This document shows, piece after piece, positions 4,237-61,301 of a stretch of 64,000 nt of DNA (position 1 is its first letter; the number at the start of each line of letters is the position of its first letter). A program made the translations under genes and the position numbers. Location of the stretch: positions 124,001 through 188,000 of the forward strand of contig NC_083371.1 in NCBI RefSeq assembly GCF_029542785.1. The letters run 5' to 3'. Source of the DNA: Malassezia japonica. Taxonomy: Eukaryota > Basidiomycota > Malasseziomycetes > Malasseziales > Malasseziaceae. The notes under the pieces were generated by a model. That model did not search any database. It was not told where the DNA came from and was given only the letters and a program-made list of their open reading frames with translations.

Positions 4237-6140
4237 CTAGCGCTTCCAGTTCTCGCGCTCGGCATCCGCGTCGAGGTGCGCTTGCTCCAGCGCCTCTTGA
4301 CTGGGGACCGACACGGGTGACGGCTCGACCCAGCTCAGCTGGACCTCGCCGACGTCGGGAATGGCGGGGCCGTTGCGGAAGACCTGCTCGCCACTCGCCC
4401 GCGTCTTGTAGTTAGCCACCAGCTGGCCCTGGTCGTGGTCGAGGGACTGGAGCTCGCCAAAGCGCTCGAGGTACGCCTTGAGCTTCGACGCGTCATAGTC
4501 CGACGGCAGCTGCGAGATGCCGACACGCGTCGTGCGGTTGTCGAGGGTGAGCGAGCGGTTAAACGCGCCGCCCCGGCCACGGAACGACGGCGCACCACGC
4601 CCGCGGCCACGGCCACGGAAACCGCGCGCGTTGCCGGACGCGTCGAGACCCAGCGAGGCGGCCTCTTGGCGCAGCGACGCGAGCTTCGCTTGGAGCTCCT
4701 CGGTGGTGGCTTTTTGCGTGTCGCTGGGCGCGTCGGTTTCCATCGCCTGCGTCGGCTGCATGTCCTTCTTCAGCATCTCGGTCGCAGACTTGATCTCGGT
4801 CGAGAGCTTCTCCAGCATGGCCATAATGCTCTTGCGTCCTTGCGGCGTGAGGTCCTTGTTTTCGAGCTTCTCCAGCAGGGATTTTTGCTCGGAGAGCTGC
4901 ATGTTGAGTAGCGTCTGTTTTTTCTTGCGCAACTCGAGCAGCTTGCGCTTCTCGATGTCGATAGGTGTCGGCGCGGGCTTGGGAGCGTCGGCATTGCGCA
5001 GCTCCGGCGCAATGTACACGTTCGAGCCCTTGTCCGTCATGTAGTTCGGCTTCGAGGGCAGCGGCTTCATCGGGCGCTCCGGCTCCAGGCGCTGGAAGTA
5101 CACCTTGACGAAACGGTTGCCAAAGATCACGTCGGGGTTCTTGTGCGCCGCGTCGGCCTCGTCGGGCGTCGCATAGCTTACCATCGCCTTGGAATTCGGC
5201 GTGTCGACGTCAATGTTGGTAATCGTGCCGAACCGCTTAAAGTAGTCGTTCACATGCGCCAGATCCAGGTGCTCCGAGGGTATATTTTCAATCACCAGCG
5301 TGTCTTGGCTGCGCACAGGCGCCGGGCCGTGTCCCATAAAGCCCGCACGGCCGCCGCGGCCACGGCCACGGCCACGCAGGCCACGACCGCTGCCGCGCAT
5401 CGGCGGCATCGGCGGCATCATGGGAGGCATCGGCATGCCTTCCGGCAGCTGGCCAGACGCGACCATCTGCTGCATCTGGTCCATGGCCATCTGCATTTGC
5501 TCCGGCGTCCACGGGACATCGGGCGGCGGAAGCGCGCCGCCCATCGGGAAGCCAGGAGGAACAGGGCCTACAATGCTGTCGTCCGAGTGGTGGAACTTGC
5601 AGTTGCTGCCCCGCGAGCAGTAGCCCATCGCTGCGTTAGGAAAACAACGTACTGTGGTAGTCACGGCACCAGCCTTTCGGAACCGCCTGGCGCGGGTTCT
5701 TGCGCGCGCGCGCCTGCGGTGCGTCGCTCATCGGCATGCCCTCGGGGTTCTCGGGCATCTCTTCCGCAATGTTCTCGTTGGCGGCTTGGTCGCCGAACGC
5801 GTACGCCTGGCGCTTGGCCGGCAGTTCCGCGTCCTCAAACTCTGCGTCTTCGTCCTCGGCATCGCGCTTGCGTGTCTCGCGGTATGCGCCCGACTTGAGC
5901 GTTTGGTATGCCTTGTTGACGAACTCCTCTGTCGCACCCTCCAAGAAGTCGACGAGCTGCTCATTCATCATCGACAGCAGCTCCGTCTCGCTGGTATCGT
6001 ATTTGAACAGGGCGAGCACATAGTCGGCGAGCACATCGGGATCGGCGTCACACCTGTGTTAGCTATGCGACATACAATGGCTCGAGCTCAGTAATGAGCC
6101 ACTGCTTGACGGCCTCCGTGTCCTCTTGCGGAAACAGCAT
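4237..6140 (-). CDS. RBM26/RBM27 (Rmn1)-like RNA-binding protein with PWI-like, CCCH and two RRM domains
   Basis: Exons 6076..6140, 5653..6053 and 4237..5630 join through two 22-nt introns to 619 residues. The N-terminal ~90 residues form the PWI-like fold seen in RBM26/27 (KQWLITELEPLCDADPDVLA). Splicing out 5631-5652 restores a perfect C-x8-C-x5-C-x3-H zinc finger (CRDYHTMGYCSRGSNCKFHH) that is broken in the unspliced sequence. A methionine/proline-rich segment and a glycine/arginine patch follow, then an RRM near residues 260-335 (TLVIENIPSEHL), a charged coiled-coil stretch, a second RG patch, and a degenerate RRM near 525-595. Family members act in nuclear RNA surveillance with MTREC/PAXT-type exosome adaptors. 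The protein is expected to be nuclear. Confidence 0.88.
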
Positions 6141-6228
6141 GTCGGCTCACGGTTGCTTGTGCGTCGGCGGCGGCGACGCATTGCTTTTTGTCAGCATGAC
6201 CAATCGATCTCCACATACTAAAATATAA

Positions 6229-6234
6229 CACGTG
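6229..6234. promoter_or_regulatory. CACGTG box between the RBM26-like gene and RPL20
   Basis: Palindromic CACGTG in the 239-bp divergent spacer upstream of ribosomal eL20. The same hexamer recurs in many other short promoters of this window. It is the classical core for bHLH factors such as Cbf1; binding is inference. Confidence 0.4.
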
Positions 6235-6321
6235 ATGTGTTATAGTTTTGGTTCGGCCGACGGGCCTTGCGTTTTGTGCGTCGTTCGCACCGCTGCGTTC
6301 CTTCGTCAAGCACACTCTAGG

Positions 6322-6375
6322 GTGAGTGAGAGCGGCGTGGACACGTCGTGTGTGAACAGAATACTAACCTGTCAG
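6322..6375 (+). other. Probable 5'-UTR intron of the eL20 gene
   Basis: GTGAGT at 6322 and ACTAACCTGTCAG ending at 6375, four bases before the ATG of the eL20 gene, form a plausible 54-nt leader intron. Ribosomal-protein genes of fungi often carry such an intron. No reading frame tests it, so it is less certain than the coding introns. Confidence 0.55.
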
Positions 6376-6379
6376 AACC

Positions 6380-20748: not shown

Positions 20749-21785
20749 ATGTGGGGCCTCCAGACGGCGGCGTACCATGGGCGGATGTAGGTCGCGGCGC
20801 TGACGCAGTGCGGCGTATACGTTTTCGGAGCCGAGCGCCTTGAAGGAGGTGGCGAGAGCAGAGAGCCGGGCTCCGGCATGGCTCGAGGACATTACGCTCG
20901 ACGAGCGGTTCGTGCTGGCGGTCGACGAGGTGCCCCATGCGCAGCTCGCCGTGTACGACGCGCGCCTCGTGCGGCGAGGGACAGCGGCGCTTGGCGGCGA
21001 TGGCGCGGTGTCGATCGCGGCCGTGCGCACCAAAGACGGCGCGCAGGTCTACGTCGGTACGTCGACGCGCTCACGCAGCAAACTATGACTCGGGGTCCGT
21101 GTCGGTCGTGGACCTCTTGCCTGATGGCGCGCTTGGCGCGGCGCACGTTATCCGCTTCACGCGAAGCGGTACAGGGCCGGTGTCCGCGCGCCAAGACAAG
21201 TCGTACGCGCACCAGGTCATGCCCGCGCCGGACGGGCGCCACGTCTATGTGTGCGACCTCGGTGCGGACCGTATCCATATCCTCCGAGTCGGCGCGCATG
21301 CCGCCGATGCGAAGCATGTCGACTCGGTGGCGGTGCGCGATGGGAGCGGCCCTCGCCATATCGCATTCGACGGGGACATGGCGTACGTCGTGATGGAGCT
21401 CTCGCTCGAGGTCCAGGCGTACGTGCGAGACGCGTCGGGCATGCTTGTGCCCCAAGGCCTCCCGGTGGCAGCGTGCGCCGGCCCTGGCGCGCGGACGCTC
21501 GCCGAGATTGTCGTGGCCCCCCAGCGCGTCTATGTGAGCAGCCGCGGGGACCCTGTCGAGGACCACATCGGCGTCTTTTGCCGTGCACCCAGCGGTGCGC
21601 TCTCTCACCTGCAGTGGCATCCGAGCGGCGGGCGTGTTCCGCGGCACTTTTCCGCGAGCGCCGACGGCCGCTACCTTGCGGTGGCGAACCAAGGCAGCGA
21701 GACGCTTGCGATCCTCGACGCCGAGCGCCTGGCGGTCCTCGCGCAGCACCGCGTAGGTCCGATCAACTATGCAGGATTTCACTAG
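20749..21785 (+). CDS. Lactonase-fold seven-bladed propeller protein (6-phosphogluconolactonase-like)
   Basis: Exons 20749..20786, 20809..21056 and 21079..21785 give 330 residues. Both introns are 22 nt and both are demanded by frame: without the first there is an in-frame TGA and no ATG, and the second restores VYVANYDSGSVSVVDL, a classic propeller strand. Further blades include YAHQVMPAPDGRHVYVCDLGADRI, GPRHIAFDGDMAYVVMEL and PRHFSASADGRYLAVANQGSETL. The family includes muconate-cycloisomerase-like lactonases and the Pgl-type 6-phosphogluconolactonase; the substrate cannot be fixed from sequence. Start codons of this gene and TAF6 are only 26 bp apart, and its 3' end overlaps the syntaxin gene by 23 bp. 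Confidence 0.86.
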
Positions 21786-22702
21786 GATACACTATGCGAG
21801 GAGCTGCGTTAGCATCATTACGTACCGCCAGCAGCACGACTGCAATCACAAAGGCCACGATCACCATTAAGCACGCTGTGCGGCGTCCCGCGCGGCGTTG
21901 GTAGTTGTGTGCCTGGAGCAGTTCGCGATCTGCCCCGTGGGCATTCGTAGCAATGTTTCCGATATTGTACTCGATATTGTCAATCATCCCCCCCTGTTCC
22001 TGGACGATGTGGCTCAGGTCGCGGAAGATCTCGTTCAGTTCCTGGACGCCCGTCTCGATCTCGCGGATTTCGGCCTCGCGCTCGGCAATGAGCGCTTCTT
22101 GGAACTCGAGCTCGGCCTGCGAGATGCGCGGCACCTGCACCTCCTGCTGCAGTCCGCCCAGCGGCTCGGCGCTCTCGGCGGTGGACTCGTCCGCGGCGTC
22201 GGTCTGGGCCTTGACGTAGGCGAGCGCCTCCTTCTCCTTGCGGATGCCCGACTTTTGGATCGCCTGGAATGCCGCAAGCGCCTGCTGAAAGTCGCGCTGC
22301 TGCTTCGACTGCATCAGCACCGCCGGCGACGAGCGTGTCGAGCCAGGGCTGGAGCGCAGCGGGAAGGCCGACAAGGCCTTGACGTCGTCAGTCGCGTCCT
22401 TGACGATCGAGCGCGTCTGCTCGCTCAGGTCGTTGCTGCGTCAGTAGGGCAACGTACAATTGGCGGCGCAGGTCATCGTTCGACTGGTAGCCCGACTTGC
22501 GCAGGCGCGCATCGAGCTTCTGCAGCGTCGAGACGTTGGCATTGATGCGGAATACGTGGAGGCCGACCTGCTCCGTGAGCCGCATAAACTCGGTGCTCTC
22601 CGCGCGGCTGCTGGGCACATCGCGCTCGGCATTACGGCCCCGCGGCGCGAGCGGCGTCTGGTCCTCGCCACCCAGCCCCTGCTCCAAATCGCGAAAGGAC
22701 AT
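21763..22702 (-). CDS. Qa-SNARE, Pep12/syntaxin-7-like
   Basis: Exons 22458..22702 and 21763..22435 around one 22-nt intron give 305 residues. The N-terminal helices (LTEQVGLHVFRINANVSTL, then LRRQFNDLSEQTRSIV after splicing) form a Habc-type region. The SNARE motif near residues 195-250 contains EIRDL-like layers and the zero-layer glutamine in SHIVQEQGGMIDNIE, which makes it a Qa-SNARE. A single C-terminal membrane segment (TACLMVIVAFVIAVVLLAV) is followed by about 19 residues, a longer tail than usual for a tail-anchored syntaxin. Late-endosome or vacuole location is inferred from similarity to Pep12. The tail overlaps the convergent lactonase gene. Confidence 0.87.
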
Positions 22703-22744: not shown

Positions 22745-25115
22745 ATGACGACGCTGCTGCGCGCACGTCCACTCGCTCGTCTTGTATCTCCTTTGCGCAT
22801 AATGACCCGCACGAACTGGACGCCGAGCAAGGCGCCGTACCCCCCCGCACGCCGCTCGGATGCATCGACGACGTACGCCTCGGCGAAGCACGGAAAAGTG
22901 ACCGTGCCCGAGCCGTACGACTGGCTCGAGACGCCCCCGTCGCAGAGCGAGGAGACGGCTGCGTGGACCAAAGCGCAGGCCGCGTATACCGATGCGTTCC
23001 TCGCCGAGTGTGGCGATAAGGAGGCGTTCAAGAAGCGCCTCGAGCAGAACTGGGATTATGTGCGGACCTCGGCGCCGTCGCACAAGCGCGACGGCCGCTA
23101 CTACTACTCGTACAACGCGGGCCTTGCGCCGCAGAGCGTGATTTACCGTGCGACGCGCGAAGAGATTGATGCCGTGCACGGCACGTCGCAAAAGGAGCCG
23201 GTTGGCGAACTGTTCTTTGATACCAATGTCCTGTCCGACGACGGCACGGTCGCATTGTCGCTGACCGCCTTTTCGCACACGGGCAAGTACGTCACGTACG
23301 GCCTGTCGGTCAGCGGCTCGGACTGGATCAAGCTGTACGTGCGCCCGACTGATGCGCCGCTCGTCTCGAACGACGGCACCGAAGGCGGCGCGGGCCGCCT
23401 GGCCGACGTGATCGAGAACGTCAAGTTTTCCTCGGCCGTCTGGACGCACGACGACCAGGGCTTCTTCTACCAGCGCTACCCCGCCGTGTCGCACGAGGAC
23501 AAGGGCACGGAGACGGATGCGAACCAGGACGCCGAGTTGTATTACCACCGCCTCGGCACGCCGCAGTCGGACGACGTGCTGGTCATCGCCAGGGACGCAG
23601 CCACGCCGAGCTCGATGTGGCATCCCACCGTGACCGACGACGGAAAGTGGGTCCTCCTGGAGAACTCCAAGGACACGGATACGAAGCAGCGCTTCTACCT
23701 CGCGCCGCTCGAGGGCCAGACGATCGGCGCGTCGATGCGCTGGATTCCCATCTCGACCGAATTCAAGTACACGCTCGGCTACCTCGGCAACGACGGCAAC
23801 CGCTTCTACTTTATCACGAACAAGGATGCGCCGAACTACCGCGTGGTCGCCCTCGACGTCGATCCCGCGCAGGCGGTCGCGACGGAGCACGTCGCGGAGC
23901 TGACCGGGGCCAACGACGCGTTTGTCGACCTCGTCGCCGAGGACTCCAAGGCGATCGTGACCTCGGCCAAGATCGTCGACCAGAACAAGCTCCTGGTGCT
24001 TGTCTCGCGCGACGTCAAGGACGAGCTGTGGCTCCACGACCTCGAGGGCAAGCAGATCACGCGCCTCCTGCCCGACCTGGTCGGCACCGTCGGCCAGGTC
24101 GCGGGCCTGCGCGAGGACCGCGAGGTGTTTGTGCTGACTGTCTCCTTCTCGAACCCCGGCACGGTGCACCGCATCGCGTGGCAGGGCGAGCCGAGCAAGG
24201 TCGAGGGGCCGACGTCCGTCGAGGTGTACTCTGCGACGCACGTCGCCGGCATCCGCCCGGAGGAGTACACGAGCACCCAGATCTTTGTTCCGAGCAAGGA
24301 CGGCACCGAGATCCCCGTCTTTTTGACGTACCCCAAGTCGATGCCGCTCGACGGCTCTGCCCCGGCGCTGGTCTACTTTTACGGCGGCTTCAACATCCCG
24401 CTGAACCCCGTCTTTTCTCCGTCGATGATGACGTGGGTCGCGTCGTACGGCGGTATCCTCGCGTTTGTCAATGCGCGCGGCGGCGGCGAGTACGGCGACA
24501 AGTGGCACGAGGCGGGCATGCTCTTTAACAAGCAAAACGTATTCGACGACGTGATGGCCGCGACGCAGCACCTGCACGAGCACAAGTACGCCGCCAAGGG
24601 CAAGATCACCATCATGGGCGGCTCCAACGGCGGCCTGGGCGTTGCTGCCGTCGCAAACCAGTGCACCGACGCGAGCGGAATCGGCGCGGCGATCGCCGAC
24701 GTCGGCGTGCACGACATGCTCAAGTTCCCTCTGTGGACCATCGGCAAGGCGTGGGCGGCCGACTACGGCAACCCCCAAGAGGACGGCGCGGCGTTTGACT
24801 ACAACTATGCCTACTCGCCGCTGCACAATGTCACGCAAAAGGTCTATCCGACGATGATTTTGGCGTGTGCGGACCACGACGACCGTGTCGTGCCCGCCCA
24901 CTCGTTCAAGCTCGCAGCCGAGCTGCAGCACCAGCGCAAGGACAACCCCAACCCCCTGCTGCTCCGTGTCGAGCTGCAAGCCGGCCACGGCGCAGGAAAG
25001 AGCACGCAGAAGCGCATTGACGAGGCGAGCGAAAGTACGTCGTTATCCTAACCCAGAATTCGCGATTGTCGCACGGATGCTCGGCCTGTCGCTGGCCAAG
25101 GGCTCGGCGCTGTAG
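22745..25115 (+). CDS. Prolyl oligopeptidase (S9A) with possible organelle presequence
   Basis: Exons 22745..25034 and 25057..25115 around a 22-nt intron give 782 residues. The propeller domain is followed by an alpha/beta-hydrolase domain with Ser627 in GGSNGG, Asp712 in CADHDDRVVP and His748 in AGHGAGK, the full catalytic triad. Splicing supplies the last 19 residues, ending in the helix FAIVARMLGLSLAK. The N-terminus MTTLLRARPLARLVSPLRIM is basic and lacks acidic residues, like a mitochondrial presequence. A second ATG (residue 20) would give a protein of ordinary length, so two forms are possible. It cleaves short proline-containing peptides. The divergent syntaxin start is 42 bp away. 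Confidence 0.93.
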
Positions 25116-25121: not shown

Positions 25122-25765
25122 TTACTGGAAGCCCCCGCGGCTGCACGCAGCGTAGAGATCGTCTGTGTGAGAAGCGCGACGTACCACCGAGGTAGTGCAC
25201 ATTGTCCACCGCATTGCCTTTGCCTTGCGTCTTGATCTCGTCGGTGCCGAGGAGCAGGACACCGACCGAGACCTCGTGCTGCTTGCCTTGCGAACGGATG
25301 GCGACCGGCGTGCCCTTTGCAAGGGGCTTTTCGCCGTTCGACGCATCCGGCAGGTGGCCGCCCGCCGACGTCAGGCCGGGCGACATGACATTCGCACCAG
25401 ACAGCAAAAACTTGATCGCGCCGCGGTCCACCTGGATCCAGGGCAGGAGCGCCGGGTCTGGGTCAGTAGCATGACGTACATTGGTGGAGGACATGGAGCG
25501 TCGGCAGGTAAGGGCCGTCATAGTGCTGGAAGAACACCGGCAGGCCCTTGGAGAGGACAATCTGCACATGCTCGCGCTTGAACTTGACGACAGTCATCGG
25601 CTCCTTCTTCGGCATGATCTGCTCGAGGAGCGCGCCGTCGTTCGCGCCGAGCGTGTCCTCGTACTGCTCGAGCAGCTTGGTCCGGATTCCGCGCTGCACT
25701 GACGACTTGAGCGACGTGGGCGTGCCCACATCCGTCTTCGGGTCCAGCTTCTTGAACAAGGACAT
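25122..25765 (-). CDS. TMA20: Translation machinery-associated PUA protein TMA20 (MCT-1)
   Basis: Exons 25480..25765, 25185..25457 and 25122..25162 with two 22-nt introns give 199 residues, close to the 181 of yeast and human proteins. N-terminal MSLFKKLDPKTDVGTPTSLK and KLLEQYEDTL lead to a PUA domain (YPALLPWIQVDRGAIKFLLSGANVM, then GLTSAGG). The first splice joins HVLHQ to YPALLPW exactly as in homologues. The protein works with Tma22/DENR in recycling 40S subunits and releasing deacylated tRNA. It ends six bases from the stop of the prolyl oligopeptidase gene. Confidence 0.94.
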
Positions 25766-27273: not shown

Positions 27274-28022
27274 TTACGCGCTGCCAGGGCCCAGGGCAAT
27301 GAGATTGTACTGCACCTGGTCGGGATCCGCTTGCATCTGGGTCAGTCGTGGCACATACATAGTAGGTCTGTACAAACTGCGCCGCAGCCGTCAAGAGATC
27401 CGCGGCGGTCGGCACGTCGACATCGCGCTCGATCGGTCCACGGCGGCGGCCATCGAGCTCGATCAGCTTGCCGCTCGGGCCACGCACAAAGGCGACAAAG
27501 TGCAGGTCGACCTGCGCGTGCGCCTCTGGCGCAGCCGTCTGTCCTTCGCCGGCGGTCTGTGCGTGCGCGTCGCGCAGCGCATCGCAGGTCTCCAGGAGCT
27601 GGGGGCGCTGCCCCTGCGGCGCATTGCGCGCGGCCTCGAGGAGCTGCGCGAGTGGCGTGCCGGCCTGCACAGCCGAGGCGGCCCGCGAATTGCTGATGGC
27701 GTGCAGCAGGCCGATGGTGCCGCATGCATTGCCGATCTGGGTCAGCTACGCAACGTACCGTCTGGGGGAGGTAAAGCAGCTCTTTTGCGTCCTTCGGCTC
27801 GGCGTACACCGCGTCCTCGGCCGTCTGGCGCGCATCGATGCCGAGCGTCAGGGGGAAGAGGAAGAGCACCGCGTCGACCGGCTGGGGAACCATCGCCAGC
27901 AGGTCAGCATCCAGGCCAAAGATATCGTGGAACGCATGCTTCTGCGTATCGAGTCCAAGCCTCGCACTCCATTCTGTAAAGAGCTCAGGGTTCGCTTCCA
28001 GCGGGACCCACGGCGAAGACAT
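27274..28022 (-). CDS. YUH1: Ubiquitin C-terminal hydrolase, YUH1/UCH-L3 type
   Basis: Exons 27759..28022, 27359..27736 and 27274..27336 with two 22-nt introns give 234 residues, the usual length. It begins MSSPWVPLEANPELFTEW. The first splice rebuilds the active-site segment LPQTIGNACGTIGLLHA with catalytic Cys and the oxyanion Gln before it. The catalytic His and Asp appear in DLHFVAFV and LIELDGR. The last splice gives the C-terminus YNLIALGPGSA. The enzyme trims small adducts from ubiquitin C-termini and may process Rub1/NEDD8. It is divergent from UNG, with about 55 bp between start codons. Confidence 0.95.
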
Positions 28023-36922: not shown

Positions 36923-38078
36923 CTACGAGGGCGGCGCAATGCTCGCGAGCGTCCCCGGCAGCGCCCGGCTGCCTTCGTTGTAGAGGAGGGCGACGGTGGC
37001 GACCACCGACACGAACAGCACAGCGACGGTGCTGCCGATGAGGAGCGTGAGCGACGATACGTCCTGCTTCTCGCATGCGGCGCCAGTCTGCGTTAGATAG
37101 AAGACGTACCCAGTACAAGGTGCGCTGTGCGCTCTTGGTCGGCGTGCAGGCGCACCGCCAGCACTTTTTCCCGCCCTTGCTCGTCTCGATGGGCGAGCCG
37201 TGTCCGGAGCACTTGACGGTCGCCCGCTCAAGCGACTCCTTGGACAGGTGGCACGCACCCGCGTCGGGCAGCGAGCCGTTGAGCGGCGCAACGACGCCGC
37301 CGAGCCGCGTCGTGGACGCGGCAAACGGCGCGAGGAGCGCCTCGCGCGTCTCGAGTCCGCGGCGCGCGTGGCCCTGCGATGCGGCGTGCACGAGCGCGAG
37401 CGGCGCGGCGCCCGCAAGCGCGCGCTGCGTCAGGCGCTCCATCACCGCCTGCAGCTGCGCCTTGGCCTCCTGGAAGACGTGCGACTTGGCGCCGTACTCG
37501 CTGCGGACATCCGCGAGGGCCGAGAGGCGCAGCTGGTACACCGCATCGAGGTTGATCGGCACGTTGGCGTCCGCGAGGCGGCGCAGCGCGCCGAGCTCGG
37601 CGTGGAAGCGTGTGAGGGCGTCGCCCGCGTGGTGCGCGGCGTCCTTGACGCCGTTCGTCACTGTCGCGTACAGCTCCGCGAGTGCGTCGTAGTTCGTGCC
37701 AGAGGCGCCGTGCGGCACGACGTGCGTCGCACGCAGCGACTCGCCAAACAGCGCCTCCTCGTCCTCGAGGCCGTGGAACGTGACCATGATACCGCCCTTG
37801 GCCGGGGAATCAAACAGGCTCGACGCGTCGTACAGCGCGCCGTCCTCGGGCAGGTGGTGCCACACCTCGGGCTGGGTGCGCTCCGCGCACGGCAGCGGGA
37901 GCGACTGCGCCTCCACGCCGAGGTGCTGCGACAGGACAATGTTGAGGTCCGGCAGGCTAATCTCTACAGGGTTCGCCGTAGGCACGATGCCCGTGTTGAG
38001 GTACAGCGTCGCCCGCGCAAGCGCCACAGCAGGCGCGACAAGCGCCCCGAGCGCATACGCCAGCCACGGCGTCGACAT
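36923..38078 (-). CDS. Vps3844-like secretory/vacuolar membrane protein (DUF3844 family)
   Basis: Exons 37110..38078 and 36923..37087 around a 22-nt intron give 377 residues. A signal peptide (MSTPWLAYALGALVAPAVALA) starts the protein; a longer start at 38102 is possible. A large lumenal part follows. The C-terminal module is diagnostic: CSGHGSPI, GGKKCWRCAC, then after splicing WTGAACEKQDVS, a membrane span (LLIGSTVAVLFVSVVATVALLY) and the tail YNEGSRALPG. The conserved cysteines form an EGF-like cap before the membrane. In yeasts related proteins work in the ER or vacuolar system; the exact role is not settled. Its start is 61 bp from the divergent carrier gene. Confidence 0.8.
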
Positions 38079-38139: not shown

Positions 38140-39155
38140 ATGGAGCAGGACCGGGGGCGTGCGGGGCGCCTGAGCCGCGCGACGAAGGATGTGCTCTTTG
38201 GGTCGGTCGCAGGGATGATGAGCAAGGTGCTCGAGCACCCGTTTGATCTGATCAAGGTGCGTCTGCAGACGCAGCCGATGCATCCCAAGCCGCACTACGC
38301 CGGAGCGTATGACTGCTTTCGGCAGACGCTGCAGCACGAAGGCGTCCGGGGCCTCTTTCGCGGCGTCTCGATGCCGCTCGTGGGCGCGACGATGGAGAAT
38401 GCTGCGCTCTTTCTCACCTATAACCAGATCCAAGAGGGGCTCCGCAAGGCGCTCGGCGCGCCGCGCGATCAGCCGGCGCCGCTCTCGCAGCTGGCGATCG
38501 CCGCGGCGGGCGCAGGCGCCGTCGCAGGCTTTGTCCTGACGCCAGTCGAGCTGATCAAGTGCAAAATGCAGGTGCAGATGATGGCCGCGCGCCACGCATC
38601 GCACGCCGATGCGCCGATATCGGCGCCATCGCTCATTGCACGGACCGTGCGCGAGAGCGGCCTCCGTGGCCTCTGGCTCGGCTTCTCCGGCACGCTCCTG
38701 CGCGAGACGGGCGGCGGCGTGGCATGGTTCCTTGCGTTTGAGCTGTCTACACGCGAGCTACTGCGCCTGCACACGACGCGCCTGCACACGCAGGCGACCA
38801 AGGCGGATCTGAGCAGCCTCGAGCTGGCGCTGTGCGGCGCGCTCGCGGGGATCTGCTACAACGTGAGCCTGTTCCCCGCCGACTGTGTCAAGTCGACGAT
38901 GCAGACGGAGCGCGAGCTGCGCGCACAGACCCACGCGCACCTTCCTCCTACGGGCTTCTTTGCGACGCTCGCCAAAATCTACGAGACGCGCGGCCTGCGT
39001 GGTTTGTACGCCGGGGTAGGGATTACCTGCCTACGGAGCGCACCGAGTAGTGGTACGTCCTATTACTAACGCAGCATTGGTCTTGTACGTCACGCCCCTA
39101 ACCCAGCCTTGTGTACAACAAACTCGAGCAAGCGGCCGAGCGCTACGGCCTGTAG
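38140..39155 (+). CDS. ORT1: Mitochondrial carrier, ornithine/basic amino acid type (ORT1-like)
   Basis: Exons 38140..39052, 39075..39084 and 39107..39155 give 323 residues. The middle exon is 10 nt (CATTGGTCTT) between two 22-nt introns; removing both joins RSAPSSALVFLVYNKLEQ, the normal end of a carrier. Three tandem carrier repeats each show the P-x-D/E-x-x-K/R signature: HPFDLIKVRLQT, TPVELIKCKMQV and FPADCVKSTMQT. Spacing and the ETGGGVAWFLAFE segment fit the ornithine/arginine carriers of the inner membrane. The substrate is inferred by similarity. Confidence 0.88.
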
Positions 39156-39331: not shown

Positions 39332-40763
39332 ATGCCCCTTTGGCCCAGTGCACCGGTCATCACTGGCGTTCGCAACTCGATCCGTAACCCTTTCCGTACC
39401 GCTCGCACTTCCTTCTTCGCACTTCCCAAGCACGCGGAATTTTCTACCAGCATGTCCGCTTGTACGTACCCCGTCTGACCGTGCGCAGCCCAAAAGATTA
39501 AGGTTGCCAACCCCGTTGTCGAGCTCGACGGCGATGAGATGACGCGTATTATCTGGAAGAAGATCCGCGACGATGTACGTCGAGAAGCTAATGCAGCTCA
39601 TCCTCCCCTTCCTCGACGTGGACCTGAAGTACTATGACCTGAGCATCGAGAACCGTGACCAGACCGACGACAAGGTCACGGTCGAGGCCGCAGAGGCCAT
39701 CCAGAAGTACAAGGTCGGTGTCAAGTGCGCCACCATCACCCCCGACGAGGCGCGCGTGGAGGAGTTCAAGCTCAAGAAGATGTGGCTCTCGCCCAACGGC
39801 ACCATCCGCAACATCCTCGGCGGCACCGTTTTCCGCGAGCCCATCGTCCTTAACAAGATCCCCCGCCCGGTCCCTGGCTGGACTAAGCCCATCTGCATTG
39901 GCCGCCACGCGTTCGGCGACCAGTACCGCTGCCAGAACTTTGTGGTGCCCGACGCGGGCAAGCTCACGATCACCTTTACGCCCGAGAACGGCGGCGAGAA
40001 GATCGAGCACCACGTGTACGACTACCCCAAGGACGGCGGTGTGGCGATGGCCATGTACAACACCACCGAGTCGATCACCGGATTTGCGCACGCCTGCTTC
40101 AAGGTCGCGATCGAGAAGCAGATGCCCCTGTACCTCTCGACCAAGAACACGATCCTGAAGGCGTACGACGGCAAGTTCAAGGACATTTTCCAGGACCTCT
40201 ACGACAACAAATACAAGCCCGAGTTTGAGAAGCTCAAGATCTGGTACGAGCACCGCCTGATCGACGACATGGTCGCCCAGGCCATCAAGGGCGACGGTGG
40301 CTTCGTGTGGGCGTGCAAGAACTACGACGGTGACGTCGAGTCCGACATTGTCGCCCAGGGCTACGGCTCGCTGGGCATGATGACCTCGGAGCTGATCACC
40401 CCCGCCGGCGACCTCATCGAGAGCGAGGCTGCGCACGGCACCGTCACGCGCCACTACCGCGAGCACCAGAAGGGCAACGAGACGAGCACCAACTCTGTTG
40501 CCTCGATCTACGCCTGGACCCGTGGCCTGATCTTCCGCGGGAAGCTCGACGGCAACCAGGACCTGGTCGACTTTGCCCGCGCGCTCGAGGAGGCCTGCAC
40601 CGAGTCCATCGATAAGGATGGCGTGATGACCAAGGACCTCGCCTACTCGATCCACGGCAAGAACATGAAGCGCGAGCACTACGTGACCACGTTCGAGTTC
40701 CTGGACCACGTCAAGCAGCTCCTCCGGAACAAGCTCCACACCCAGGGCAAGACGCACCTCTAA
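39332..40763 (+). CDS. IDP1: NADP-dependent isocitrate dehydrogenase
   Basis: Exons 39332..39461, 39489..39574 and 39597..40763 (introns 27 and 22 nt) give 460 residues. The N-terminal ~42 residues are basic and hydroxylated ([18 protein letters not shown]), a mitochondrial presequence. A second in-frame ATG at 39452 would give [20 protein letters not shown], a cytosolic or peroxisomal-length form. Conserved segments: [31 protein letters not shown] across splice two, [17 protein letters not shown] (substrate Ser/Asn/Arg), [12 protein letters not shown] and [14 protein letters not shown]. It makes NADPH and 2-oxoglutarate. The exon 2/3 joint restores the family sequence exactly. Confidence 0.95.
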
Positions 40764-44136: not shown

Positions 44137-45575
44137 ATGCAGCTGCCGGAGGCCATGGCGCGGCCAGAGGAGGAGCGCGCGGTGCTCAAGGCGCTCCGCC
44201 GCGAGCACAAGGACGTATGGAGCAGGCTCTGGAGCATCGAATATGTAGGTAGCGGCTCTAACGCAGGATGCGCGGTTCGTCGCGGAGGTGTGCGACGCGT
44301 ACTACCCCCTTGCGCTCGTGGGTACGTCGCGTGTCTGACCCAGCGAACATGCGGTGCGGCGCGTGGTACACGCCCCCGGAGCGTGTGCAGGCCACGTCGT
44401 ACTTCAAGTCCACCGATGGGCACATGCACCAGTGGGACTTTTCGCTGAAGCGCACGAATCTGCACCTCGTCGAGACGATCCAGGGCGGGGCGCATGCGCT
44501 CACCGGGTGCCTCGTCGTCGACTCGACGCGCCGGGGCAAGCGCTTCCCGGACGCACTGTCTAAGACGGTGCCGATCTGGTGCGCGGTCCTGAATCACGCG
44601 TCGCACAGGCGCCACGGCACGCCGACGGACGTGCCGCTGCACGTCGCGTCCTACGCCGTGTCAGACAGCGAGCGCGCCCAGATCGAGGCGCGCATCGGCG
44701 CGTGGGTCGACGCGTTCCTCGCGTCGGACTGGGACGTGCCGTGCCTCACAAAGCCGCTGCAGCCGCTGTTTGTCCACCCGGGCGACCGCGCGGCGTTTCC
44801 CCCGCAACCAGAAGACGCGCACCACATTGTGCTGGTCAGCGCGTCGGCCGTCGACACGGCACCGAGCGGCCCGGGCGGCGCACACTACGTCCAGGGCGCG
44901 GGCGACGACCACGAGAGCTGGGCGCACGGCCTGACGCCGGATATCTTTTGGCGCCACCGCGCGGCACTGCTTGCGCCCGACCTGGACCGCGGTGCACGCG
45001 AGGCGCGCATCCAGGAACTGGTCGCTGCGCGCGCCGCCGAGACCCAAGGGCACCTCCCGTGGATGGCCGAGCACGAGGGCGATCTCGCGCGCATCGGCGC
45101 GACGCGCCTCGTGGTCGCTGCGCGCCCCGCCGCCTACGACTTTCAAAAGGAGCTGGGCGCCTATGCGCTGGTCGTGCACTGCACCCCGCTGCCGTCCGAC
45201 GACGCCGTCCTGCGCCTCGGCGTCCCCGAAGGAAAACGTGGCCTGGGCGAATTCACAAAAGCACTTCCGCGCGCCGTCGACGCGATTACCCATGCGCTTG
45301 CGCACGATACCCGCGATGTACTGCTCGCGTGCACCGACGGATGCCACGCAAGCGGCGCGCTTGCGGTCGCGGTCCTTGCCGCGAGCTACTCCGAGGACCG
45401 CGTGTTCCTCGCTTCGCCCGACGCACGCACCGCGCACCGCACGCACCTCTCGAAAGACGCCACGAAGCGGCGGCTGCAGTGGGTCGTCAGTGCCTCGCCA
45501 CGCATCTCGCCGAGCCGCGCGTATCTGCAGCGCGTCAACGCGTATCTTATTGGGCCACACCGTCAATGGACATAG
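44137..45575 (+). CDS. RIT1: Initiator tRNA phosphoribosyl-transferase RIT1
   Basis: Exons 44137..44244, 44267..44321 and 44344..45575 with two 22-nt introns give 464 residues. Splicing generates SIEYDARFVAEVCDAYYPLALVANMRCGAWY, matching the N-terminal family block. TSYFKSTDGHMHQWDFSLKRTNLHL and GCLVVDSTRRGKRFPDALSKTVPIWCAVLN follow, both typical of Rit1. The C-terminal part holds a cysteine-based P-loop-like element (VLLACTDGCHASGALAVAVLA). The enzyme adds a 2'-O-ribosyl phosphate to A64 of initiator tRNA, keeping it out of elongation. It is divergent from the composite ligase/glycosidase gene (93 bp between starts). Confidence 0.93.
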
Positions 45576-55325: not shown

Positions 55326-55374
55326 CGTGGCGAGGCGGTCCATGCGGGGCCATATTTCCCCGACTGTCGCCACG

Positions 55375-56533
55375 ATGAAGCGCAAGATCCTGTTGATGGG
55401 CAAGTCGGGCTCCGGCAAGACGTCGATGCGCTCGTTCATCTTCTCGTCGTACCGGCCGGAAGATACGAAGCGCCTCGGCAGCACAATCGAGGTCGAGCAC
55501 TCCCATGTGCGTTTTCCCGGCTCCCTCGTCCTGAATCTCTGGGACTGCGGAGGGCAAAAATCGTACATGGAGAGCTACATGGACACGCAGCGCACGCAGG
55601 TCTTTAGCGCAGTCGGCGTGCTGATCTACGTCGTGGACCTCGTCAACACGGACGACGAGGGCGGCGACACCCACGAGTGGGAGGCCGATCTCCGCTACTT
55701 CCGCGACTGCTTATCAGCGCTGCAGAGCAACTCGCCGGGCGCCGAGGTGTTTTGCCTGCTGCACAAGATGGACCTGATTGAGCCGTCGAGGCGGCGCGAC
55801 ATCTACCGGAGCCGGGTGGCGGACCTGCGCCGCAAGACACGCGAAGTCCTCGCCGCACACGCCTCGTCGCCGAACGCGTCCGACCATGTGCGCCTGCACT
55901 GCTTTGCGACGAGCATCTGGGACGCGACACTGTACAGGGTGCGTTTTTTTCTCACTGACACAGGCATGGTCAAGCATCATCCATACACTCGTGCCCGACG
56001 TCGAGCGCCTCGAAGCCCACCTCGCCTTGCTCTCACACACCTGCTCGGCGTCGGAGGTGGTGCTCTTTGAAAAAGCGACGTTCCTCGTGATGTCCTACTA
56101 CAGCCAGATGAATGCGGAAACAACGACCCCGCGCTCGCTCCTCGCCTCGGACCGCGTGACGCTCGACGCAGGCCAAGATACCGACGACGTCCTGCTCGAA
56201 GGCCTCTCCACCTCGATGCTCCCAGACACCGCGCGCCACACACCAGACGCGCTCTCGGGCGACCGCTTCGAGCGGATCAGCGAGCTGGTGAAGCACTTTA
56301 AAATCTCGTGCCTCGAGTCGCACCACCAGATCCAGGCGCTCGAGCTCCGGACACCGACGTTTGCAGCCTACCTCGACGTGCTCACCTCGAGCACGTACAT
56401 CCTCGTCATCACGACCGACCCTGCGATCCGTACGTTCCCCCCCCCTTCTCACCCAGAAATCAGCGCCGTGAAGCGCAACGTCGAGCTCAGCCGCGCCCAC
56501 TTTGAGCAGCTCCAGGCGAGCCACGCGGGCTGA
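55375..56533 (+). CDS. GTR1: Rag-family GTPase GTR1
   Basis: Exons 55375..55938, 55964..56429 and 56457..56533 (introns 25 and 27 nt) give 368 residues. G1 is LMGKSGSGKTSMRSFIF; the switch and G3 region is LVLNLWDCGGQKSYMESY; G4 is the HKMD motif. The C-terminal roadblock domain follows (FEKATFLVMSYYS, FKISCLESHHQIQALELR). Splice one uses GTGCGT and joins LYR to AWSSIIHTLVP. Splice two joins DPAI to QISAVKRNVELSRAHFEQL, matching the family; since it is 27 nt, retention would leave the frame open with nine changed or added residues. Gtr1 activates TORC1 at the vacuole in response to amino acids. Confidence 0.93.
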
Positions 56534-56587
56534 GTCCGTGCGCGTATACCCATAGCAGGTAGGCCGTCACGTGCTTTCAACGACGAC

Positions 56588-57298
56588 ATGGCCTGGCTGG
56601 GACCGGGGATGGTACGGCGTATGGCGCTGCCCGCGTACGCGTGGCCTGCGCCCGGACTGCGCCCGAGCAACATGCGTAGCATTGCGAAGCCGATGGCGCT
56701 GCAGGCGCGGGGCGTGCACTTTGATACCAATGCGTTTGTCCAGCGCCTCGAGAACGCGGGCATCAAGCGCGAGCAGGCCGACGTGCTCGTCACCGCGCTG
56801 ATCGATGTTATCAATGAGAGTATCGAGAACTTTGCGCGGGGCCTCGTGCGCCGCGATGAGGCCGACCGCCAGACCTATGCCCAAAAAGTCGACTTTACCA
56901 AGCTCAAGTCCGAGATCCAGCTGCTGGAGCGGAGCGACTTTGTGTTGATGAAGTCGGAGAACGAGCGGCTGATGGCCGATGTCGAGAAGCTCAAGCAGCG
57001 CCTGCGCGAGGAGATTACGAGGACGACGGCAGGCGTGCGCCTCGACTTGAACCTCGAAAAGGGTACGTTTCGCTGCTTACCCAGGCCGCATCCGCGACGA
57101 GTCGTCGGTGCACGCGCTCAAGATCAAGGAGGTCGATACACGCATCGAGTCCGAGATCGCGGGGGTGCGTACGAGCATCCAGAGCGCCAAGTTCAATGTG
57201 CTTCAGGTACGTCGACCGACCGACTCACACAGTACCTTGTCGGTGTCGCTACCGGTGCGGGTGCGCTGCTCCTTGCGTACTTGCGTATGTTCCGTTGA
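56588..57298 (+). CDS. Mitochondrial coiled-coil protein, CCDC90/FMP32 (DUF1640) family
   Basis: Exons 56588..57062, 57085..57206 and 57233..57298 (introns 22 and 26 nt) give 220 residues. A basic N-terminus (RRMALPAYAWPAPGLRPSNMRSIAKP) suggests import into mitochondria. The family block follows (FDTNAFVQRLENAGIKREQADVL, VDFTKLKSEIQLLERSDF, RLMADVEKLKQRLREEI) and a coiled coil leads to a C-terminal membrane segment made by the last splice (YLVGVATGAGALLLAYLRMF). Relatives in animals are MCUR1 and CCDC90B; yeast Fmp32 is linked to cytochrome oxidase assembly. A CACGTG box lies at 56568-56573, 14 bp before the ATG. Confidence 0.88.
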   Translation: MAWLGPGMVRRMALPAYAWPAPGLRPSNMRSIAKPMALQARGVHFDTNAFVQRLENAGIKREQADVLVTALIDVINESIENFARGLVRRDEADRQTYAQKVDFTKLKSEIQLLERSDFVLMKSENERLMADVEKLKQRLREEITRTTAGVRLDLNLEKGTFRCLPRPHPRRVVGARAQDQGGRYTHRVRDRGGAYEHPERQVQCASGTSTDRLTQYLVGVATGAGALLLAYLRMFR

Positions 57299-57596
57299 TA
57301 GTCGACAATGTATATGTATTGGTCCGGCCCATGTGACAAGGCGCGCGTGCCGCGCGCCGCGCACAGGCACGCCGAGGCACACGGCGCGGTGGCGGAATGC
57401 GAATAATGAACTCGCACGGCCCGATCGAGTCCAGGGCAGCCGCGCTGCGCCGCGCGTCCTGCTCTAGCTGTGTGTCGCTGTGCGATGCACGCCTAGCCGC
57501 CCACGCCACGCCCTGTCCTACGCACCGATCCCACACGCGGTCTGCCGTCCCTCCCGTCAGCGCCCTTGCACTGCCCGATCGATCACCCACTCCACC

Positions 57597-58382: not shown

Positions 58383-59575
58383 CTATGGCCAGTTGGTCAG
58401 TGCGCGGCACACGGCCTCGCGACCAACGTCGCCGGTCGTCGTCTCCACCGCGTGCCAGAAGATGTAGCTGTGGCGCAGTGCGGCGAGGTGCAGCATCGCC
58501 GCGATCAGCACGCACGTGTGGAAGAGCTGGTGCGAGGCGCCGATGTAGTCAAACGTCCCGGGCGCAAAGCGCTCGGGAATGTGCGCCACGTACAGCAGCG
58601 TGCCAAAGATGTACATCGCGCCACTCCATACCACATACTTGTAGCCAAGGGTCGAAAAGACAAACTCACTGCGCCCACTGAGGTACACGCCGTGGAGGAT
58701 CGGCGCAACGCCGCTCAGGCCCAGCGCGACAAAGACTCCGGCACGCACTGGGCGGAACTTGGGCGTGGCGTACTTGGGCTGGACGACGGTGTACATCGCG
58801 AGCATGCCCCACAGCAGGATCATGGAGAGGTAGAAGTGGTGCACGTTGGGATGGCAATAGAGGCCGTAGCGCAGCGCAGGGATGTTGCTCCCGACAATTA
58901 GCACGACAATGCCCACATAGTCCAGGCGGTTGATGCTCTTGGCGACCGGCTGCGAGTGGCACGCGAGCGTGTGGAACGTCGCACTGCACGTCAGGCAGAT
59001 GATCGCCGACACCAAAAAGATCGTCAGCACGACCTGGTCCGCGGCATCGGGCGGGATCATTGTCTGGCTCTGCCGCATGACGAGGTCTTCGGAAACCGTC
59101 GACGGGAGGACGTTGGTGTGGACGGGGAACGTGAGAAGCGAGTAGGGTGCCCAGGGTCCATGAGGCAGCAGGCCGCTCAGATCGACCAGCTGCAGCACAA
59201 GGAGGAACACGGCAATCACCGCGCCGATCATGTGCGTGTGAATGTTGACTGCGTCAGCCACGCGGCGTACCGGTCTCGTTGTGCCAGTAGTCCCACACAC
59301 TCCTCCAGCACTGGTAGTACGTATCGTGGCGGTACGTCGGCTCCGTGTCAGGCGCCGCGGCAGGCGCAGCGGACGCCGCGGCGGTCGTGCGCCGGCGCAG
59401 GCCCGAGTCTTTTTCCGGCACAGGCGGCGCTTTTTCGGGCACGCGCGGTGGTGCGTCGCCAGGGCGACGGTATCCGCGCCTCAGATACGCATTGTCCTGC
59501 GCTACATTAGCACAACTACGCACCCCACACAGGCAGCTCTTCAAACTCGACCAAGTACGGGTTCCCGATGGTCAT
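58383..59575 (-). CDS. IZH1: IZH/adiponectin-receptor-like seven-TM protein (PAQR family)
   Basis: Exons 59524..59575, 59271..59501 and 58383..59248 with two 22-nt introns give 382 residues. The first intron has GTGCGT and TAG ends; its removal joins ELPVW to AQDNAYLRRGYRRP, the family entry motif. The second joins NET to VNIHTHMIGAV, the hallmark NxxNxxTH segment before TM1. Zinc ligands appear in SATFHTLACHS and in GASHQLFHTCVLIAAMLH near the end, and seven membrane segments can be counted. Yeast Izh proteins affect zinc and sterol balance and probably act as ceramidases. The start is 35 bp from the divergent gene at 59611. Confidence 0.94.
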
Positions 59576-59610
59576 GGCGCTTCGGCCACCTCCACTTGCA
59601 CGTGGCAACG

Positions 59611-60261
59611 ATGCGGGTCTGGCCGTGGCTCGTCGGTGCGGCGCTGCTCGCGGTAGCGGCGGACGCGCGGGCACCCGACGTGCGCGATGTGCGTGACGAG
59701 CTTGCGCGGCACAAGCATCTGCTACAGAAAGAGGCGCAGCGGCCGTGGCGGCCGGCGGATGTGCAGCTCCCCCCGCCGCCGACGGCGACGGCGACGGCGA
59801 CGCCTACCACCACGCCGGGCCTCATTCCCCGTTTCATCGGGGGAGCGGTCGTGTACGGCGCGCAGGCCGTTGGCTACACCATCGGCACGGTGCAGGCCGT
59901 GTCGGGGCTCGTGTACGCGCTCCTCGCCTCGCTCGTCTTCAATCTTGTATATATCCTGAGCGCGACGCTCTATCCCCCCTGGGCCGTGTCGCGGAATGCG
60001 GCCTCGGTCGTGTCCGTGTACCTGTACGAGCTCGGGGCGCCGGTGCGCTATGTCGCACACGCCTTCTACCTGCTGTTTGTGCGCTGGCCGATGCACGCGC
60101 TCTCGTCCGTGATGCATATCGTCTACCAGGCCTATGTGATCCTCGGCGTGGCCATAATCCTCGGCGCGCTGCTTGGCGCCTTTGTCGGCGTGCTGCTCTG
60201 TTTGGAGAACCGCTTGTACGTAGCGCGGCTTCCCCGCGAACGCCCTCCACCGCGTCCATAA
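59611..60261 (+). CDS. Unidentified small membrane protein with signal peptide
   Basis: Single exon, 216 residues. MRVWPWLVGAALLAVAADA looks like a cleavable signal. A short charged and Pro/Thr-Ala-rich segment (residues 25-70) follows. Then come three or four hydrophobic stretches: FIGGAVVYGAQAVGYTIGTV, LVYALLASLVFNLVYILSATLY, a tyrosine-rich amphipathic helix VYLYELGAPVRYVAHAFYLLF, and VILGVAIILGALLGAFVGVLL. The last bears a GxxxG-type pattern. It ends in a basic, proline-rich tail. I do not recognise the family. Its stop lies 19 bp before RFC4 on the same strand. Confidence 0.65.
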   Translation: MRVWPWLVGAALLAVAADARAPDVRDVRDELARHKHLLQKEAQRPWRPADVQLPPPPTATATATPTTTPGLIPRFIGGAVVYGAQAVGYTIGTVQAVSGLVYALLASLVFNLVYILSATLYPPWAVSRNAASVVSVYLYELGAPVRYVAHAFYLLFVRWPMHALSSVMHIVYQAYVILGVAIILGALLGAFVGVLLCLENRLYVARLPRERPPPRP

Positions 60262-60272
60262 TTCCCCACCAG

Positions 60273-60278
60273 ACGCGT
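60273..60278. promoter_or_regulatory. MCB-like ACGCGT immediately upstream of RFC4
   Basis: ACGCGT ends two bases before the RFC4 ATG. The MluI cell-cycle box is the target of MBF-type factors on S-phase genes, and RFC4 is such a gene. Its position inside the presumed leader weakens the case, and the word is common in GC-rich DNA. Confidence 0.3.
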
Positions 60279-60280
60279 CC

Positions 60281-61301
60281 ATGGCGAGCAGTGCAGGGAA
60301 AGGGTACCAGCTGCCGTGGGTGGAAAAGTACCGCCCTCGGCGGCTCGAGGACGTGGTAGGCAATGCGCAGACGGTCGACCGCCTGCGTGTGATTGAAGAG
60401 AATGGCAACTGTCCGCATCTCCTGGTCTCGGTACGTGACGCTTCTGACGCAGGGCCTGCCCGGTATCGGCAAGACGACGAGCGTGCACTGCCTGGCGCAC
60501 GCGCTGCTGGGCGACGCGTACAAAGAGGCGGTACTGGAGCTGAACGCGTCCGACGACCGTGGCATCGACGTGGTGCGCAACAAAATCAAGGTCTTTGCAC
60601 AGAAAAAAGTGTCGCTGCCGCCCGGCAAGCACAAGATCATTATTCTCGACGAGACGGACAGCATGACGCCTGGCGCGCAGCAGGCTCTGCGGCGCACGAT
60701 GGAGATCTATGCGAATACGACGCGCTTTTGCTTTGCGTGCAACCAGTCGAACAAGATTATCGAGCCGATCCAGAGTCGCTGCGCGATTCTGCGCTTTGGG
60801 CGCGTCGCCGACGACGAGCTCCTGCGGCGCCTCGTGCAGATCTGCGACGCGGAAAAGGTCGAGTACGCAGACGAGGGCCTCGCGGCGATCGTCTTTACGG
60901 CCGAAGGCGACATGCGCCAGGCGGTCAACAACCTGCAGTCGACGTGGACCGGCCAGGGCTTTGTGAGCGCGGACAATGTGTTCAAGGTGTGTGACCAGCC
61001 GCACCCCCTCGTCATCCGCGAGATGCTCACGGCGTGCAACAAAGGCGACGTCGACGCGGCGCTCGACAAGCTCGACGAGGTATGGACGCTCGGCTACTCC
61101 TCCCTGGACATTGTCACGACGCTCTTTCGCGTGGTCAAGACGATGGACACGCTCCCCGAGCCGGTCAAACTCGAGTACATTCGCGAGATTGGCTTCACGC
61201 ACATGAAGACGCTCGAGGGCGTCGGCACCCTGCTGCAGCTGAGTGGGCTCGTGGCGCGCCTCGCGCAGCAGGCCATGAACCCCAAGTTGTTTGTCGTATG
61301 A
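60281..61301 (+). CDS. RFC4: Replication factor C small subunit RFC4 (human RFC2 type)
   Basis: Exons 60281..60430 and 60453..61301 around a 22-nt intron give 332 residues. The N-terminal [18 protein letters not shown] is followed by a Walker A created by the splice, [20 protein letters not shown] (the Ile form as in yeast Rfc4). Also present: [18 protein letters not shown], Walker [12 protein letters not shown], the SRC sensor motif in [13 protein letters not shown], and [14 protein letters not shown]. It belongs to the clamp loader that places PCNA on DNA and takes part in alternative checkpoint loaders. The C-terminal collar helices are complete. Confidence 0.95.

Follow-up and report, generated by a model that had tools for sequence, protein, structure and literature searches.

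The window analysed here, a stretch of 64,000 nucleotides (nt) of Malassezia japonica corresponding to positions 124001-188000 of contig 2 of an 8.43-Mb genome in nine contigs, holds among others genes for a CCCH/RRM protein, a syntaxin, a UCH protein, uracil-DNA glycosylase, NADP isocitrate dehydrogenase and replication factor C subunit 4 (RFC4), and its coding regions are interrupted by 26 introns of exactly 22 nt. The accumulation of introns at this one size holds in the window and extends to the sampled genome. Splicing was read from DNA and protein sequence only, and introns are predicted throughout.

For 25 of these introns coordinates had been listed in an initial annotation, and each was confirmed as a GT..AG segment of exactly 22 nt on one strand (25/25). 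The donor reads GTRNGT in 24 of the 25, the exception being the intron at 59249, and all 25 have CTNAY at positions 14-18 and NYAG at the 3′ end. These signals were rechecked with inclusion of a 26th intron, 21804-21825 on the minus strand, which had been overlooked. The consensus of the 22-nt introns is GTACGT-N7-CTNAY-NCAG, with 16 nt from the donor G to the putative branch A and a further 5 nt to the last base.

For motif counts at larger scale, the window was joined by 20 stretches of 10 kb, sampled across all nine contigs at positions fixed before their content was known, for a total of 264 kb. GTRNGT donors were paired with CTNAYNYAG on both strands, the branch-to-3′-end distance being fixed at 5 nt. 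Because the reading frame was not used, the count is unbiased against lengths divisible by three. In the window 25 such pairs had the 22-nt spacing and the range of 15-21 nt was empty, and in 40 third-order Markov simulations of the 64-kb window, used as chance expectation, a mean of 0.05 pairs was obtained at 22 nt. The 264 kb gave 72 pairs at 22 nt, 6 at 23, 1 at 24, 4 at 25, 5 at 26, 2 at 27, 1 at 28 and 1 at 29, with none at 15-21 nt, which bears out the earlier claim that introns of 22 nt far outnumber those of any other size and that the lower edge is sharp. With GTCNGT also allowed as donor, one 18-nt pair appeared in the window (36476-36493, plus strand, donor GTCCGT); it was absent from the gene model calls and was rejected as an intron.

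The gene model worked in six frames, and any GT..AG segment of 10-200 nt was allowed as an intron under a flat length prior. In the first round 22 of 85 introns were 22 nt long, in the second 31 of 96, where every other length occurred at most four times. Five decoy dinucleotide pairs, run through the first-round model, gave 0, 0, 1, 2 and 4 introns of 22 nt among 71-80 introns each; in one decoy 22 nt was tied as the commonest length, with 4. The model was refined by learned weights for donor (6 nt) and acceptor (5 nt) and by lengths up to 250 nt, after which 55 of 118 introns, and therefore about half of those predicted, were 22 nt long. Four of the 118 were shorter (13, 19, 20 and 20 nt). 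The 13-nt call (L012:5918; L labels denote stretches of the same genome outside the window) was rejected as the start of a 22-nt motif intron, and the 19-nt call and one 20-nt call, both without a branch motif, were treated as model errors. The other 20-nt call, L010:4300-4319, ends in CTAACAG/CAG; it was not counted as an exception because reading it as 23 nt leaves the frame unchanged and obeys the spacing rule. The model is poor at frame-neutral lengths, and its long introns include doubtful calls, several of which swallow shorter ones. In the window it gave 39 introns, 21 of them of 22 nt, so that the total of 43 coding introns claimed earlier was not reproduced; five of the 26 introns of 22 nt were missed (33557, 39053, 39085, 39575 and 44245), and several of the longer window calls are doubtful. 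Extrapolated to the whole genome, the 52 motif 22-mers that were also called by the model correspond to about 1,660 introns of 22 nt (95% Poisson interval 1,240-2,180), and all 72 motif 22-mers to about 2,300 (1,800-2,900).

Within the introns, the distance from donor to branch is more sharply bounded than total length, with its lower edge at 16 nt in the sampled genome. GTACGT was followed by the branch A of CTNAC at 16 nt in 54 pairs, at 13-15 nt in none, at 12 nt in two and at each of the spacings 17-20 nt in three to five, and two control motif pairs gave 3 and 0 pairs at the 16-nt spacing. Among 89 model introns of 20-60 nt, 85 contained the branch motif; their donor-to-branch distance was 16 nt in 58 and never below, and their distance from branch to last base was 5 nt in 65, 6 nt in 11 and 3-9 nt in the rest, save one at 20 nt. 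In stretches of the form GTRNGT-N7-CTNAY the first AG ended 5 nt past the branch A in 72 of 79 cases. Many model introns of 23-38 nt kept the branch motif near the 3′ end and had a longer first part. In the 7-nt linker, positions 7-9 weakly favour C-G-C (C in 30/72, G in 38/72, C in 43/72), and no pairing partner for this triplet was evident.

For domain support, spliced proteins were aligned to PDB entries, 14 proteins were given to Pfam, and the junction positions were mapped onto the matches. A matched PDB or Pfam domain spans 18 of the 26 junctions in the window (Table 1), and four of these junctions, in RFC4, uracil-DNA glycosylase and NADP isocitrate dehydrogenase, fall where the spliced protein matches a solved structure. 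Three restorations named in the initial annotation were upheld, namely the CCCH finger at 5631, the active site QTIGNACG of the UCH protein at 27737 and the Walker A motif of RFC4 at 60431. Its wider claim that every splice restores a conserved motif is supported at the 18 junctions inside a matched domain; the other eight are carried by joined frame and motif only. The lysine-rich protein with the intron at 33557 was the only one of the 14 proteins without a Pfam match. In the mitochondrial carrier gene, a micro-exon of 10 nt (39075-39084) lies between the introns at 39053 and 39085.

Table 1 Predicted 22-nt introns of the window, followed by three longer introns of like architecture
Feature	Position	Strand	Support
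22-nt intron, CCCH/RRM protein	5631..5652	-	Pfam zf-CCCH 151-171 spans junction 156/157; intron-like inserts at same site in relatives
22-nt intron, CCCH/RRM protein gene	6054..6075	-	Pfam PWI 10-76 spans junction 22/23
22-nt intron, lactonase-like gene	20787..20808	+	Pfam Lactonase 10-308 spans residue 13
22-nt intron, lactonase-like gene	21057..21078	+	Pfam Lactonase 10-308 spans residue 96
22-nt intron, syntaxin gene, near C-terminus	21804..21825	-	motif and joined frame; outside Pfam stretches
22-nt intron, syntaxin gene	22436..22457	-	Pfam Syntaxin_2 42-175 spans residue 82
22-nt intron, prolyl-oligopeptidase-like gene (named by reading the sequence)	25035..25056	+	motif, joined frame
22-nt intron, PUA-domain gene	25163..25184	-	motif, joined frame; residue 187, just past PUA 101-185
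22-nt intron, PUA-domain gene	25458..25479	-	Pfam Pre-PUA 9-97 spans residue 96, at its extreme end
22-nt intron, UCH gene	27337..27358	-	motif, joined frame; about residue 214, outside Pfam 5-212
22-nt intron, UCH gene	27737..27758	-	Pfam Peptidase_C12 5-212 spans residue 88; QTIGNACG restored
22-nt intron, uracil-DNA glycosylase	28864..28885	+	PDB alignment gapless across junction 255/256
22-nt intron, uracil-DNA glycosylase	29120..29141	+	junction 333/334 in PDB-matched 310-370; alignment gaps nearby
22-nt intron, Polyketide_cyc (START-like) domain gene	32779..32800	-	Pfam Polyketide_cyc 73-215 spans residue 150
22-nt intron, lysine-rich protein	33557..33578	+	motif and joined frame only
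22-nt intron, cis-prenyltransferase	34855..34876	+	Pfam Prenyltransf 61-274 spans residue 138
22-nt intron, Vps3844-like gene	37088..37109	-	Pfam Vps3844_C 284-379 spans residue 331
22-nt intron, mitochondrial carrier	39053..39074	+	motif, joined frame; outside the one Pfam stretch listed
22-nt intron after 10-nt micro-exon	39085..39106	+	motif, joined frame
22-nt intron, NADP isocitrate dehydrogenase	39575..39596	+	PDB alignment crosses junction
22-nt intron, Rit1	44245..44266	+	Pfam Rit1_C 20-267 spans residue 36
22-nt intron, Rit1	44322..44343	+	Pfam Rit1_C 20-267 spans residue 55
22-nt intron, CCDC90-like gene	57063..57084	+	Pfam CCDC90-like 38-212 spans residue 152
22-nt intron, GTACGC donor, HlyIII-related gene	59249..59270	-	Pfam HlyIII 89-349 spans residue 95; NETVNIHTH restored
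22-nt intron, HlyIII-related gene, residue 18	59502..59523	-	motif, joined frame; outside Pfam stretch
22-nt intron, RFC4	60431..60452	+	PDB alignment crosses junction; Walker A restored
25-nt intron, Rag GTPase gene	55939..55963	+	motif; Pfam Gtr1_RagA 4-242 covers junction by reading
26-nt intron, CCDC90-like gene	57207..57232	+	motif; inside Pfam CCDC90-like 38-212 by reading
27-nt intron, Rag GTPase gene	56430..56456	+	motif, joined frame

Longer predicted introns of 33-38 nt were also noted in the window at 3821-3853, 6569-6602 and 6780-6817, in genes that, read from the sequence, look like those of a ubiquitin-fusion and a ribosomal protein.

Two loci outside the window mark the extremes. 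In L004 (C1:400001-410000) three consecutive 22-nt introns lie on the minus strand (3232-3211, 3207-3186 and 3178-3157) and enclose exons of 3 nt and 7 nt. The spliced reading, VVVCPWHQYDF, encodes the CPWH motif of a Rieske domain. Taken together the triple is 66 nt long and therewith frame-neutral; Pfam Rieske matched with 31.9 bits (cut-off 20.3) after splicing and did not match with the introns retained. In an alignment with 11 relatives, picked among the matches listed, nine read CPWH without a gap. The exceptions were M. furfur P0242, which reads W-WH, and M. nana P0252, which reads through as WYVCLLTQP (P labels denote annotated proteins of relatives, which were compared at the level of protein, not DNA). 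M. psittaci P0264, in which the whole Rieske part is missing, was left out of the alignment.

The second locus is a Chk1-like gene (L015 with L041), where a frame-neutral segment of 21 nt, GTACGTCGCGCTGCTCACCAG, interrupts the kinase domain. Its removal raised the best PDB match, to Chk1, from 190.3 to 202.1 bits and closed a gap of 7 residues. The donor-to-branch distance is 16 nt and the branch-to-3′-end distance 4 nt, and the segment is likely a 21-nt intron. The earlier statement that no intron is shorter than 22 nt therefore stands for the listed introns of the window but not for the genome, in which this one elsewhere is likely shorter. The proposal of a hard limit at 22 nt fared similarly, in that the edge is sharp and 22 nt the commonest size, but the donor-to-branch distance of 16 nt gives the sharper edge. 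Total intron length is probably without an absolute edge at 22 nt, because the Chk1-like gene likely holds an intron of 21 nt in which the distance from branch to 3′ end is 4 nt.

Proteins of other Malassezia species were inspected at the same sites. The best named matches of the CCCH protein, among the matches listed, were from M. obtusa (66%) and from M. yamatoensis, M. brasiliensis and M. furfur (62%), and the best named match of TAF6, likewise among the matches listed, was from M. psittaci (75%). Three protein searches all pointed to Malassezia; among the matches listed no named species exceeded 75% identity, and the matches at 99% to the CCCH protein and to TAF6 were metagenome proteins. 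Eight inserts at intron sites were picked by eye from relatives' proteins and were taken to fit if an insert of its exact length could be back-translated to GTRNGT..CTNAY..YAG with 4-7 nt from branch to 3′ end. Six of the eight fit, with inferred lengths of 21 nt for each of two inserts of M. furfur P0242, 24 nt in M. furfur P0006, 24 nt in the M. obtusa-like P0002, 27 nt in M. yamatoensis P0004 and 30 nt in M. nana P0015. The read-through in M. nana P0252 missed the insert lengths tested and fit the 22-nt pattern, and the second insert of P0002 fit none of the patterns tested. As background, a scan of 17 relatives' proteins totalling 9,416 residues turned up 10 further places compatible with one of the 16 length-and-layout patterns, as well as three further places compatible with the 22-nt pattern. 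At the CCCH-protein site no insert was found in P0005, P0007, P0008, P0009 or P0010. The annotated proteins P0242, P0006, P0004, P0015 and P0252 thus appear to contain translated tiny introns.

The two inserts of P0242 comprise 7 residues each and share site and phase with a 26-nt and a 22-nt intron of M. japonica; of four layouts tried, only 15 nt from donor to branch with 5 nt from branch to 3′ end fit them. Since these inserts back-translate to 21-nt introns at homologous sites, the genus Malassezia as a whole is probably not bound to a limit of 22 nt, and intron sizes in close relatives seem to differ slightly from it.

Two further observations concern the relatives' annotations. M. obtusa P0003 appears to lack the CCCH finger altogether. 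P0128 of Malassezia sp. CBS 17886 is annotated as a single protein of 891 residues with both a TAF6 and a syntaxin domain; the genes for TAF6 (19055-20722) and syntaxin (21792-22702) adjoin on the minus strand of the window, and an annotation fusion is therefore likely.

The spliceosomal machinery was searched for in the genome. U2 small nuclear RNA (snRNA) was found with GUGUAGUAUCU, the usual branch-pairing box (GUAGUA), U6 snRNA was found with ACAGAGA, and U5 snRNA was found as well. Matches to U1-70K, Slu7 and Prp18 were above the cut-offs, and the best match of a U2AF65-like gene reached 224 bits, under the curated cut-off of 310. A U1 base that would compensate for the GTACGT donor was looked for by pattern: ACTTACCTGGCA had no match, and ATACKTACCTGG had three, all of them ATACGTACCTGG. 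On the other strand the first of these loci serves as donor to a 22-nt motif intron, the second is ambiguous, and the third resembles a donor belonging to a longer intron; a permissive Rfam scan of all three listed no U1, and they were rejected. Minor, U12-type introns have ATATCC or GTATCC donors and the branch site TCCTTAAC. Neither signal is found in the 22-nt introns, with their donor GTACGT and branch CTNAY, and no search for minor snRNAs was made. The features of U2-type introns that were found comprise GT..AG ends with an extended donor, a branch motif along with U2, the presence of U5 and U6, and restoration of the protein (18/26).

Splice signals and their spacing, joined frames, restored protein motifs and the genes and RNAs of the machinery are thus present in this genome, and the 22-nt segments are very probably ordinary U2-type introns that have shrunk near to the smallest geometry their spliceosome accepts. 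In this scheme the A of CTNAY, position 17, would be the branch point, and each 22-nt segment would be removed efficiently, with recognition by intron definition. The 7-nt linker may come close to the shortest that allows the helices of U6 with the 5′ splice site and of U2 with the branch site to meet. With only 5 nt from the branch A to the last G, a polypyrimidine tract would not fit in downstream of the branch point, and U2AF65 might not be needed in its usual place. Deletion pressure would have piled introns up at the size limit.

Several findings weigh against this explanation. The decoy runs also gave small peaks at other lengths, the tallest with 8 introns at 19 nt (GT..GA), and the gene model failed to reproduce the exact boundaries of 20 among the 72 motif 22-mers (10 within a longer predicted intron, 10 otherwise). 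The first coding model had moreover been seeded with the spliced sequences of seven window genes, from six of which 22-nt introns had been removed and from one introns of 25 and 27 nt. Eight of the 26 window junctions (21804, 25035, 25163, 27337, 33557, 39053, 39085 and 59502) lack homology support. U1 snRNA was not found genome-wide with two Rfam models and the usual 5′-end patterns, though the U1-70K domain is present, and the U2AF65-like match is weak support because the U2AF profile also matched two of 14 control genomes below its cut-off. To these the likely 21-nt intron of the Chk1-like gene is to be added.

The length distribution itself also weighs against a mere minimum. Counts drop 12:1 from 22 to 23 nt and then run in a flat tail (6, 1, 4, 5 and 2 at 23-27 nt), a drop sharper than a simple floor need give, and therefore 22 nt may be an optimum, at which the spliceosome works best with 16 + 5 nt and selection holds the introns. 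The narrow mode of the branch-to-3′-end distance, at 5 nt in 65 of the 85 model introns with branch motif, and the weak linker preference would agree with such an optimum. However, a floor combined with deletion bias also yields a pile-up at the boundary, and model introns of 23-38 nt with like signals are not rare. Sequence alone does not separate a wall from an optimum at this edge; the optimum was considered possible, though the less favoured explanation.

A burst of fixed-size, introner-like insertions would account for the uniform size and for the C-G-C preference of the linker. The linker is otherwise diverse, however, and at a few comparable sites the proteins of relatives hold intron-like inserts whose inferred sizes (21-30 nt) differ; those sites are therefore old, and their size would have drifted or converged, which makes such a burst very improbable. 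That the segments are sequencing or assembly indels or programmed frameshifts, as might be suspected since most were inferred from frame breaks, is next to impossible in view of their exact length with donor, branch and acceptor signals (0.05 expected by chance per 64 kb), the frame-neutral triple intron that restores CPWH, and the intron-like inserts at matching sites in relatives' proteins.

The measure applied by the spliceosome may be particular to the lineage. With 16 + 5 nt here and apparently 15 + 5 nt in M. furfur, it might be set by spliceosomal proteins or by changes in U1 or U6 and not by a universal steric limit, a suggestion put forward only tentatively. Under such a lineage-specific ruler, intron recognition would need at most a few exon bases, since 22-nt introns stand back-to-back around an exon of 3 nt.

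Introns of 22 nt rank with the shortest known. Short introns are known from other nuclei and from relict ones. The short introns of Bigelowiella natans are those of its nucleomorph and keep to a narrow size range. They resemble the introns described here in being very short and in belonging to a compact genome, but the nucleomorph is a relict endosymbiont nucleus, whereas the present introns lie in the nuclear genome of a yeast and have a clear branch-site motif. A length of 18 nt is given for B. natans as cited in PMC12316389. The same 2025 paper counts a 23-nt intron of Trichomonas among the shortest known (PMC12316389). The type B introns of Trichomonas vaginalis (shortest 23 nt) are likewise tiny and have the branch site fused to the 3′ splice site, as here, but 63 active introns in that genome compare with an extrapolated 1,700-2,300 of exactly 22 nt here (PMC12316389). 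Stentor coeruleus has introns of 15-16 nt with the branch A mostly at position 10 of 15, and thus shares with M. japonica one dominant size and a distance of 5 nt from the branch A to the final base (PMC9505925). It differs in a donor-to-branch distance of 9 nt as against 16 nt, in the lack of a strong branch consensus and in the two step-2 factors Slu7 and Prp18, which are listed as not found in Stentor and were both found here (PMC9505925). In human short introns a truncated polypyrimidine tract leads to replacement of U2AF by SPF45 (PMC8363638); the truncated tract is alike, but the model intron of that class is 56 nt long and the class extends to just below about 100 nt (PMC8363638).

Within the genus, short introns are already in print. 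Malassezia has been described as having "very short introns" (PMC7426719), introns of M. restricta have a median of 30 nt and a mean of 37.2 nt (PMC9241646), an RNA-seq-based annotation of M. restricta had a final minimum intron of 15 nt (PMC6473144), and for M. globosa a mean of 76-79 nt was given (PMC4634964). Malassezia species with such very short introns share genus, compact genome and tiny introns with M. japonica (PMC9241646, PMC6473144, PMC7426719). The available portions of the papers on other Malassezia give averages or medians and no size spike, in contrast to the mode at 22 nt and the fixed 16 + 5 layout reported here. In the openly licensed PMC literature, as far as its text could be consulted, neither a 22-nt spike nor a 16 + 5 layout was found for Malassezia, which does not establish absence from print.

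Limiting distances inside introns are hard to study from scattered examples, whereas here introns are of one exact size and their signals are readable. A single small genome, that of a skin yeast, appears to offer an extrapolated 1,700-2,300 introns of 22 nt, relatives whose inferred intron sizes differ by one or a few nt, and a 3-nt exon as extreme; with this combination the minimal donor-to-branch distance is therefore testable base by base. For annotation, an overlooked 22-nt intron shifts the frame, and an overlooked intron of 21 or 24 nt is translated along with the exons; missed-intron errors of this kind appear to be present in the annotated proteins of several Malassezia species.

One repetitive locus was noted among the sampled stretches. 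In L020 (C8:250001-260000), between 4535 and 9525, one predicted intron of 235 nt recurs five times at a spacing of 1,189 bases, and this stretch therefore looks like a tandem gene array.

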